In this document: positions 6,932 through 10,576 of the stretch, in pieces | Layout of the letters: every line of letters starts with the position of its first letter | Position numbering within the stretch: position 1 is the first letter of the stretch | Assembly (NCBI GenBank): GCA_014804785.1 | Contig: JAAUZD010000030.1 | Span: forward strand, 61,723-125,722 | From: Lachnospiraceae bacterium | GTDB lineage: Bacteria > Bacillota > Clostridia > Lachnospirales > Lachnospiraceae | DNA length: 64,000 nt | Reading direction: 5' to 3' | Notes under the pieces: generated by a model | Told to the model about the DNA's origin: nothing | Seen by the model: the letters and a program-made list of their open reading frames with translations, nothing else | Database searches by the model: none | Made by a program: the position numbers and the translations under genes

Positions 6932-7798
6932 ATGGAGAATATTTTAGAATTGCAGCAGGTTTCCAAGACATTTTCAAAGTCGGGTTTTTCGTTAGACCAT
7001 GTGACATTTTCTTTGCCGTACGGTTCCATTTTAGGATTTGTCGGGGAAAATGGGGCAGGCAAAACGACGACAATCGGTTGTATTCTCAATACGGTCATAA
7101 AAGACAGCGGAACAGTAAAATTGTTTGGAAGGGAAATGTTGGATGCAGATACGGACATGCGGGAGAAAATCGGTGTTGTCTATGACGGTGATAATTTTCC
7201 GCCTTACTGGACTGCAAAGCAATTATCGAAAATCATGGATGGGTTCTATACCAGATGGGATCATTCTTTGTTCCAAAAGTATTTGGAGGATTTCCATTTG
7301 CCTCCCGGGCAGAAAATCAAGCATTATTCCAGAGGAATGACGATGAAATTGGCAATTGCTGCGGCATTATCACACCACCCACAGTTACTGATTTTAGACG
7401 AAGCAACCAGTGGACTTGACCCTATTATGCGTGATGAAATGCTGGATGTCTTTCTTGAATTTGTGCAGGAAGAAGAACATTCAATTTTATTATCCTCCCA
7501 TATCACAAGCGATTTGGAAAAGATTGCGGACTATATTACATTTATCCATAATGGAAAACTCATTATGACTGCGTCAAAAAATGATCTGGTATATCATTAT
7601 GCTGTCATGCGATGCAGGGAGAGTCAATTTCGCACGTTAGACCCTGGAGATATCCTTGCATATCGCAAACGCGATTTTCAGATTGACGTGCTGGTCCGAA
7701 ATGGGAAAGAAGCAGAGCGGAAATACAAAGATGTCGTTGTAGACCATGTTTCGGTTGACGAAATCATGCTACTGTTGGTAAAGGGGGAACGAGTATGA
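6932..7798 (+). CDS. ABC transporter ATP-binding protein
   Basis: Walker A GENGAGKTTT, signature YSRGMTMKL, Walker B LLILDEATSGLDP. Confidence 0.93.
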   Translation: MENILELQQVSKTFSKSGFSLDHVTFSLPYGSILGFVGENGAGKTTTIGCILNTVIKDSGTVKLFGREMLDADTDMREKIGVVYDGDNFPPYWTAKQLSKIMDGFYTRWDHSLFQKYLEDFHLPPGQKIKHYSRGMTMKLAIAAALSHHPQLLILDEATSGLDPIMRDEMLDVFLEFVQEEEHSILLSSHITSDLEKIADYITFIHNGKLIMTASKNDLVYHYAVMRCRESQFRTLDPGDILAYRKRDFQIDVLVRNGKEAERKYKDVVVDHVSVDEIMLLLVKGERV

Positions 7799-8439
7799 AA
7801 GGACTTCTTAAAAACAATTTTTATGCTGTGTGCACAAATGCAAAAGTATTCGCTGCCTTTATGCTTTTACTAGGAATCTTCGTTGTTGCCGTCATCAGCC
7901 AGTCCGCACAGATTGCTTATGTAATGACAGGAATAATCGGTTTCTCCGTAAATGCGATTGCCGTTGTCAAGAACGAGTTCGCTTCAAAATGGGGAAAATA
8001 TAAACTGACCTTACCAGTAAAGCGGACAGATATCATAAAAAGCATGTTCCTAAACCAGCTCATCTGGCTGTTCATAGGTACATTTTTTGCCGGAATCGGA
8101 ATGAGCCTGTCATGGCTCCTGCACGGCTGCTCCTTTGACCAGCCAATCGACGCCCTCACCATGCTTGCCCTAGGAATCAGCATCAGCCTTTTTTTGGGAG
8201 CAATATTCTTTCCCCTGTTCTATTTAGGCGGCGAAGAAAGAAGCGAGGTATTCATGATTATTTCCCTGCTCAGCGCCATCGGCATAGATTTAGTGATTAT
8301 TAACATACTCAATGACATATTAGAGCCAGGCCCCACCACCCCCCTGCTAGGAGCCATTACTTTATTGGCAAGCTCGCTATTAATTTTCACCCTATCCTAT
8401 CCATTAACAGTAGCTATCTTCAAACAAAAAGATTACTAA
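7795..8439 (+). CDS. ABC-2 type permease
   Basis: 214 aa, about six TM segments, 4-nt overlap with ATPase gene. Confidence 0.8.
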   Translation: MKGLLKNNFYAVCTNAKVFAAFMLLLGIFVVAVISQSAQIAYVMTGIIGFSVNAIAVVKNEFASKWGKYKLTLPVKRTDIIKSMFLNQLIWLFIGTFFAGIGMSLSWLLHGCSFDQPIDALTMLALGISISLFLGAIFFPLFYLGGEERSEVFMIISLLSAIGIDLVIINILNDILEPGPTTPLLGAITLLASSLLIFTLSYPLTVAIFKQKDY

Positions 8440-8518: not shown

Positions 8519-8826
8519 GAGAGTCAGCAGCGCCCAGGCGGTAGGGCAGTTCCTACGATATGGCGAGTGAAAAAGCATTGCAGGACTTTATGGAAAGTGG
8601 TTAGAAGGACTTAGTATTCCATACAATACCCAGCAATGGGCGGACAGGACGTCCGACCAAGGCGTAACTTGGTCCATGGATGGACCAATACGCCGTTTGC
8701 GTCCTCATTGACAAACCCATCAAAGGAATACTTAGTCCTTCTTCCCACTGCACATAAGACCTGCAATGCTTTTTCACTTGCCATAGCGTAGGAACTGCCC
8801 TCCCGCCTGGGCGCTGCTGACTCTCC
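8519..8826. repeat. Foldback element A: about 100-bp inverted-repeat arms around a structured about 100-nt apical core
   Basis: Left arm gagagtcagcagcgcccaggcggtagggcagttcctacg...ggacttagtattcc is nearly the reverse complement of ggaatacttagtccttc...cgtaggaactgccctcccgcctgggcgctgctgactctcc. Confidence 0.92.
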
Positions 8827-8830
8827 ACCA

Positions 8831-10153
8831 CTATCCTCTATTCCGCTCACATCCTATATAGAAAATACTGATTGCAAATGTCACCCCTTCCGTCACCGGT
8901 GCCGCCATCCATACCCCCGTCATTCCCAGATAAGCGGGAAGCACAAAAATACAAACGAGAAGCACTAAAAGTCCCCTTGACAGGGAAATCACTGCGGATG
9001 GAAGAGCTCTTCCGATAGACGTAAAGTAAAAAGAAGTAATAGCATTGATTCCCGAAAAGAAAAAGGAAACCATAAAGATTACCATACCAGAGCGAACCAT
9101 CGCAGAAACTGCGGCATCTTCCACGAACAGCTGACTGTACCAGCCGGAGAGTGCGGTCAGCAGCAAAAATATCATTACGCCGATTGCCAATACGAGTACG
9201 TTTGTCCTTCGCCGTATCTTTCGGGCAAGCATAACCTCCTTTGCGCCAAAGCCAAAGCTTATGAGAGGACTTGCACCCTGTCCGAATCCCACCACAATCA
9301 TACTGAACACGTAGGATACATACCCCACAATCGTAAACGCAGTCACGCCGTCAACTCCAATCCGTTTCATGATTACAAAGTTATATGCGAACATGGCGAT
9401 ACCTATTGACATCTCACCGATAAATTCGGAACTGCCGTTTGCCAGAGTCCCTTTTAATATTTGCGGGCTGAAAGTGAATGTCCCCAGATGATAAATGCAT
9501 GCTTTTTTACAGAAAAAATACAGAATCAATATGAGAGAGACCAATGCAGAAAGCAAAGAAGCAATTGCGATTCCGGCAATTCCAAAGCGCAGGATGCCCG
9601 CAAAAACATAGTCCAGAATTAAATTCATTACAACACTTATGATATTGATTTTCATGTAAAATGCCGGGTTGCCTTCTCCTCTGATGAACATGCCGAAAGA
9701 AGAATTGACCACCATGATGATCAGTTCCGGCAGTAAAATACCATAGTAGGTTTTGAAATATTCCCGCACCTGCCCTTCAGCGCCCAGAAGATCCAGCATT
9801 GGCGTAAAAAATGCCAGTACCAGCAGACCGGTCAATACGGAGAATGCAATAGTGGTTGCAAGTGTCTGTCGAAAGACCAGATTGCACTCTGACAGATTTC
9901 CCCCGCCAAAAGATATTCCTGCAATTGCGGCGCCGCCCACCGATATCATCAATCCGATGGACAAAAACAAATAAATAATCGGGAGACCTAAATTGACCGC
10001 AGCAATGCCATCTGCCCCAATATAATTCCCAATAAAAAATCCATCAACAACGGTAATCAAAGAAGTCAGCACCATTGCAATTATGGAAGGAATCGAAAAC
10101 CGCAGAATCGTTCCAAGTGTGTTTTCTCTAATTTTCTCTAAGTTCATAAACAA
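8831..10153 (-). CDS. MATE family efflux transporter
   Basis: 440 aa, about 12 TM; LRFSIPSIIAMVLTSLITVVDGFFIGNYIGADGIAAVNLGLPI. Confidence 0.92.
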   Translation of the reverse strand: MFMNLEKIRENTLGTILRFSIPSIIAMVLTSLITVVDGFFIGNYIGADGIAAVNLGLPIIYLFLSIGLMISVGGAAIAGISFGGGNLSECNLVFRQTLATTIAFSVLTGLLVLAFFTPMLDLLGAEGQVREYFKTYYGILLPELIIMVVNSSFGMFIRGEGNPAFYMKINIISVVMNLILDYVFAGILRFGIAGIAIASLLSALVSLILILYFFCKKACIYHLGTFTFSPQILKGTLANGSSEFIGEMSIGIAMFAYNFVIMKRIGVDGVTAFTIVGYVSYVFSMIVVGFGQGASPLISFGFGAKEVMLARKIRRRTNVLVLAIGVMIFLLLTALSGWYSQLFVEDAAVSAMVRSGMVIFMVSFFFSGINAITSFYFTSIGRALPSAVISLSRGLLVLLVCIFVLPAYLGMTGVWMAAPVTEGVTFAISIFYIGCERNRG

Positions 10154-10234
10154 CTCCTCCTATGATAATATTCTTTTCACATGTATCATAGCAGGAGCAT
10201 AAAATATAAACTTCTGAATTCGTGCTTTGTGTTA

Positions 10235-10576
10235 GCTGTTCACTGTCATTTGGATAAGGGGCTGGACCGGCAGATGCGGTATCTTCTTGTACCGGGCTGA
10301 ACAAAAAACTGTGCGGAAACCTTATGGGAAGTGGTTAGAAGGATTTGGCATCCCTTTTGATGCACAGCAATCGACGGACAGGAGGTCCGGCGAAGGCATA
10401 ATTTGACCCATGGATGGGTCAATATGCCGCTTGCGTCCGGTATCTATATCTAAAAAAGGGATGCTTAATCCTTCTTACCACTGTACATAGGTTCCTGCAC
10501 AGTTTTTTGTTCAGCCCGGTACAAGAAGATACCGCATTTGCCGGTCCAGTCCCTTATTCAAATGACAGTGGACAGC
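10235..10576. repeat. Foldback element B: about 120-bp inverted-repeat arms around the same apical core as element A
   Basis: Left arm gctgttcactgtcatttggataaggggctggaccggcagatgcggtatcttcttgtaccgggctgaacaaaaaactgtgc... is nearly the reverse complement of ...gcacagttttttgttcagcccggtacaagaagataccgcatttgccggtccagtcccttattcaaatgacagtggacagc. Confidence 0.92.

Follow-up and report, generated by a model that had tools for sequence, protein, structure and literature searches.

The window, which is the whole stretch of DNA that was analysed, comprises 64,000 nucleotides of a Lachnospiraceae genome (the host genome, G000). It was compared with related genomes, most of which are metagenome-assembled genomes (MAGs), and some of the repeat copies described below contain Ns or sit at contig ends. 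The genome referred to as G045 is a close sister that is approximately 94-95% identical to the host at this locus, and from G015, G004 and G045 a subset of the copies was compared. Two long foldback elements, A and B, lie among a permease, a transporter and a regulator gene, and the features of the region are as follows:

7795-8439, + strand: ABC-2 permease gene (context; PF13346), which ends 80 bp before element A
8519-8588, + strand: left private arm of element A, 70 nt, 94% complementary to the right arm and unmatched by the arms of B and of other copies
8589-8756, + strand: core of element A, RF01731 TwoAYGGAY (cmscan 113.2 bits, model positions 1-168, gathering score 43)
8757-8825, + strand: right private arm of element A, of which about 66 nt are present in single copy at the otherwise element-free G045 site
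8831-10153, - strand: MatE transporter gene (context; PF01554), convergent with the permease gene across A and with B upstream of it
10235-10576, no strand assigned: element B as a gained unit, the removal of which restores the junction found in G045, G015 and G004
10235-10322, + strand: left private arm of element B, 88 nt, 93% complementary to the right arm
10323-10489, + strand: core of element B, RF01731 TwoAYGGAY (cmscan 119.6 bits, model positions 1-168)
10490-10576, + strand: right private arm of element B, which adjoins the AraC-type regulator gene at its stop codon
10577-11410, - strand: AraC/GyrI-like regulator gene (context; PF00165, PF06445), with its 3' end adjoining element B

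The two foldbacks of the initial annotation are real; they lie at 8519-8825 and 10235-10576, and the coordinates given there were correct to within one base. The outer arms of element A (8519-8588 and 8756-8825) are 70 nt each and 94% complementary, those of element B (10235-10322 and 10489-10576) are 88 nt each and 93% complementary, and in both elements the shared core adds 33-36 further paired positions as a stem of its own. With the core stems set aside, all other inverted repeats found in the 64 kb are at most 31 nt long and 71-80% complementary. Single-strand folding of the elements was better than that of 100 out of 100 dinucleotide shuffles in both cases, with z values of -28.4 for B and -23.4 for A. 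The core blocks of A and B are 79% identical across 120 nt and the arms of A have no match in those of B, which bears out the earlier description of a common apical core carried on unrelated outer stems.

The core and its family

The cores of A and B are full-length matches to RF01731, TwoAYGGAY, that score above the gathering threshold of 43. The initial annotation had recognised no Rfam-type family here, which was mistaken: the Rfam scan returned 113 and 120 bits, and because the core is RF01731 the elements cannot be said to lack a described family. A and B are thus copies of a motif that Rfam already catalogues, though without an explanation of it. According to the pair map, the core of B contains a pair of inner hairpins, one at about 10371-10393 and the other at about 10395-10428. 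The second hairpin loop is AUGGAU in both elements, and the first keeps the GGA with one base of the model loop missing. The Rfam model stops at the base of the conserved part, and the private stems fall outside it. Weinberg et al. 2010 (PMC2864571) regard TwoAYGGAY as probably an RNA and probably not cis-regulatory; the type given in the Rfam entry is cis-regulatory, and binding by CsrA has been proposed in one paper on the basis of the GGA loops.

Further copies in Lachnospiraceae, which the first reading had left to be looked for, are numerous. The host genome contains 39 copies of RF01731, and 37 of these 39 carry private arms of 35-156 nt. Copy number within the same genus is patchy, with 34-52 in six genomes and 0-11 in the remaining ones, and for the sister G045 there were 49 matches listed, one of them under the cut-off. 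A scan with a pattern from the core found it in further Lachnospiraceae, namely MAGs labelled Lachnospira, Roseburia, Eubacterium and others among the matches listed, which also include likely chance matches in unrelated phyla. A second subfamily with approximately 37% core identity matches the same RF01731 model.

The arms of different host-genome copies are mostly unrelated. The earlier statement that outer stems do not match between copies holds for A versus B and fails for a minority of the family, in which groups of arms are alike at 70-80% and an end motif is shared. This terminal motif, TGTCATTT, was found with at most one mismatch in 15 of 67 left arms compared to a shuffled mean of 0.8, and in 13 of these 15 it lies 78-80 nt from the core; in the left arm of B it is located at about 10244-10251, 79 nt from the core. 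Since some arms can be aligned and the motif recurs, the element ends are not wholly unconserved. Some arms overrun the motif, as in copy L019, the arm of which extends 78 nt past it.

The elements are intergenic and often abut stop codons, as judged from simple ORF calls. Close copies in opposite orientation are always arranged minus then plus and thereby form outward-facing doublets, and in Lachnospira sp. RGIG8763 the doublets are built from two arm types with a spacer between them that mostly measures 135-180 bp. One doublet is spaced by 311 bp in the host genome (C51:23445-24089) and by 2.6 kb in G045 (C9:38109-41048), where it encloses a MATE-type transporter gene and another gene; either state may be the derived one. 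A composite transposon between doublets was considered and rejected, as the spacers hold ordinary genes (by eye, a MATE-type transporter and others) or nothing common. A plasmid or phage origin was likewise rejected, given that the core of B has no match in plasmid and phage collections. No recurrent protein family was found adjoining the copies, and Y1 transposases did not track copy number: PF01797 (Y1, RAYT-type) is absent from G015, which has 43 copies, and the host genome has a single match that is interrupted by a stop.

Separate observations concern other repeats and sequence quality. An unrelated second palindromic repeat family with many copies is present in the host genome outside the window (C12:10677-10874, C27:20092-20622, C23:132392-132597), and the flank of copy L106 matched this family on both strands. 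Scattered Ns occur inside L009, L014, L010, L111 and others, and some of these fall at identical positions in the G000 and G045 copies. They may reflect a source population in which orientations or copies were mixed.

Concerted change of the arms and the absence of a G-U bias

For 11 orthologous copies in G000 and G045, both arms of each species were aligned as four sequences. At distances greater than 20 nt from the core, 67 columns had changed identically on both arms and 19 on one arm only. Over whole arms, 37 of the 77 concerted changes were transversions, and the indels were mostly matched between the arms, some of them being long. Some of the differences between orthologs involve core replacement and not gradual change; with a core similarity of just about 76%, L008/L101 and L015/L104 are two pairs in which replacement may have played a part, and concerted changes are still in the majority in the others. 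In the eight pairs with unreplaced cores, the divergence was 3.9% for the core, 8.6% for the arms and 9.1% for the flanks. The same pattern was observed at a locus common to G000, G015 and G004, where identity is 74-82% for the flanks, 85-88% for the cores and 61-73% for the arms, while every arm pair is 96-97% self-complementary; more than 20 nt from the core, each of two comparisons gave 13 concerted changes and no single-arm change. The flank-like divergence of the arms, their concerted change and this self-complementarity together indicate that arm sequence is nearly unconstrained while complementarity is kept.

The core was inverted relative to its flanks in 3 of the 11 orthologous pairs, and the arm asymmetries beside the core move together with the inverted core. 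An inversion seems likewise to have occurred in L006/L098, as seen on one side. Of all features, core orientation is the one most exposed to assembly doubt. Short-read metagenome assembly could in principle have produced the arms, or their apparent identity, given that most genomes are MAGs and that several copies have scattered Ns or lie at contig ends. We regard this as very improbable. Elements A and B are free of Ns and still have their arm mismatches, assemblies of different species and from independent studies show this anatomy again, and arm differences between species that are concerted and flank-like are not what assembly would be likely to produce.

A stem that functions as RNA is expected to tolerate G-U and not A-C on the transcribed strand. 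The arm mismatches gave GU:AC counts of 27:24 and 19:20 in two sets, 48:58 in a further set, and 85:97 in a set that partly overlaps the others. In the core, the inner hairpins show rich Watson-Crick covariation with zero G-U, the outer stem has 19 GU and 23 AC (excluding G16-T153, which is invariant, and pair 24-144, which is mostly T-T), and another 34 cores gave 16:15. Two small RNA controls pointed the opposite way: the SAM riboswitch gave 31:1, dominated by one pair, and five tRNAs gave 6:1. The one-strand tolerance of G-U that an RNA stem should display was thus seen neither in the arms nor in the core, and a GU:AC ratio of approximately 1:1 argues against selection on a single-strand RNA as the keeper of arm pairing.

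These counts bear directly on the alternative that the elements act as RNA, namely as hairpins at gene 3' ends (bidirectional terminators or mRNA stabilisers, possibly bound by CsrA through the GGA loops) with pairing selected in transcripts, perhaps those of both strands. The conserved core, the GGA loops and the strong covariation speak for this alternative, as do the frequent position next to stop codons and the retention of sites over long times; the cis-regulatory type in Rfam and the proposed CsrA link point the same way, and csrA is present in 34 of the 38 genus genomes, including the host. Hairpins used in transcripts of both strands would moreover show no one-strand GU bias. However, GU and AC mismatches occur in equal numbers, stepwise compensation would not be expected to yield concerted transversions or long matched indels, and the core is inverted at some orthologous sites. 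In addition, no csrA was found in G004, which has 52 copies and is 86% complete, or in G043, which has 34 copies and is 89% complete, and many genomes that bear csrA have no copy at all. CsrA as the sole reason for the family is unsupported. Overall we consider the RNA alternative rather unlikely. The lack of a G-U bias, taken together with concerted change, transversions and multi-base indels, renders the RNA reading doubtful and favours homogenisation at the DNA level. The new structured RNA implied by the initial annotation is therefore in doubt despite the strong covariation, and the data suggest that TwoAYGGAY may not simply be an RNA.

Gain, loss and age of sites

Element B is a precise gain: deletion of exactly 10235-10576 gives a junction that aligns with G045, G015 and G004, neither arm of B is present in the empty sites of these three species, and no target-site duplication was seen. 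At site A in G045, the left arm and the core are absent and approximately 66 nt of the right arm are retained. Single-copy pieces of outer arm occur at some other element-free sites, and remnants elsewhere look like partial deletions, some of them between short direct repeats. In view of these other sites, site A is most simply, if tentatively, read as a partial deletion.

The single arm at site A in G045 had at first been read as folded-back target DNA. According to this alternative the palindrome is made on site: the core arrives, adjoining host DNA is copied inverted across it by snap-back synthesis, and the private arms are target DNA. The single-copy arm pieces and the arms that overrun the terminal motif, such as that of L019 by 78 nt, are in keeping with it. 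The first reading was nevertheless dropped given site B and the deletion-like remnants, and the alternative as a whole now appears improbable: the three species lack both arms of B at their empty sites, the spacing between core and terminal motif is fixed in 13 copies, certain copies have arms related to those of others, and the remnants at other sites resemble partial deletions.

No pair of host-genome copies has a core identity above 95%, so a recent burst is not indicated and no source copy of B is evident. Many sites are common to several species at 74-85% flank identity, which overturned our early view that sites are species-specific. The picture is that of an old, slowly turning-over family and not of a current burst. 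Old shared sites and a conserved core would fit selection for a function as well as they fit a mobile element.

Some same-looking intergenic sites carry cores of a different subfamily (I or II) in different species (L025/L122 versus L308 and L324; L006 versus L336; L028 versus L328), as if cores had been exchanged or sites re-occupied. In G015, a subfamily II element beside the MATE gene (L081:1112-1435) is found close to where A lies in the host, oriented the other way round, and its 81-nt arms are 98% complementary.

A proposed DNA palindrome with recopied arms, compared with known systems

We consider it probable that A and B, as two of the 39 host copies, belong to a dispersed non-autonomous DNA palindrome of REPIN- or MITE-like character, whose arms are kept alike by template switching or by gene conversion. 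The unit would measure about 300-340 bp, with ancestral arms of about 80 nt ending near TGTCATTT around the conserved core of about 168 nt, and it would be placed between genes, often as outward-facing inverted doublets, probably by transposition in trans. One arm would then be copied repeatedly onto the other at the DNA level, presumably through template switching during replication or through gene conversion, and this copying would sometimes invert the core and sometimes extend an arm into neighbouring DNA. As a result of such homogenisation, the arms could drift at a neutral rate with complementarity kept, so that in each copy a constrained core would come to be flanked by private stems. 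Template switching between inverted repeats yields both arm homogenisation and spacer inversion (PMC8604942), and gene conversion would serve as well. The same process, by extending arms into the flanking DNA, could account for those that overrun the terminal motif.

A host role, such as that of a two-way hairpin at gene ends, is conceivable, and the stop-codon adjacency, the core conservation and the long retention could mean such a role. More tentatively, TwoAYGGAY may primarily be, instead of an RNA, the recognition centre of a class of DNA elements that are defined by their structure, with the core and the long-palindrome property inherited and the free arms recopied and growing into the flanks, at sites that persist, invert and swap cores; this version is possible, and we stop short of leaning towards it.

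If the arms are homogenised in this manner, much of the apparent covariation in RF01731, which is typed as a cis-regulatory RNA and has been proposed to bind CsrA, may stem from arm homogenisation at the DNA level, and the same caution extends to other palindromic repeats that appear to covary. The GU:AC mismatch ratio combined with the four-arm comparison of two orthologs provides a simple general test, and the elements offer dozens of natural replicates in which to study how long bacterial palindromes are homogenised.

The defining features of MITEs are terminal inverted repeats that are conserved and target-site duplications. The elements resemble MITEs and ERIC-type units in being short, palindromic, non-coding, intergenic and multi-copy. 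They differ from MITEs in that the centre is conserved and the ends only weakly so (15 of 67 arms), and in that no duplication was seen at B. The judgement that they are not classical MITEs, with conserved ends and a variable middle, is thus supported by a conserved centre and private arms.

REPs and REPIN doublets (Bertels and Rainey 2011, PMC3116915) are likewise dispersed intergenic palindromes that are apparently non-autonomous, and REPINs are inverted doublets with a variable spacer, to which the minus-then-plus close copies and the Lachnospira doublet unit correspond. In contrast to REPs, the elements described here are much longer, and it is their centre that is conserved, not the hairpin as a whole; unlike REPINs they have no link to a RAYT-type Y1 transposase. 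The cores of A and B have the same three-helix layout as RF01731 (PMC2864571; Rfam 15, PMC11701678). The model covers the core only, and the available text of these descriptions includes neither long private arms nor dispersed copies, nor the concerted arm change, inversions and absent GU bias observed here.

In behaviour there is a parallel with template-switched inverted repeats and quasipalindrome correction (PMC8604942, PMC7202029), in which arms are homogenised, changes are clustered and spacers are inverted. The arms tabulated in the yeast study are 7-16 bp with spacers of a few bases, whereas here the arms are mostly 35-170 nt, the conserved core is approximately 168 nt, and the process would extend across a whole repeat family. 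The marks of template switching, namely concerted arm changes, matched indels and spacer inversion, are all present.
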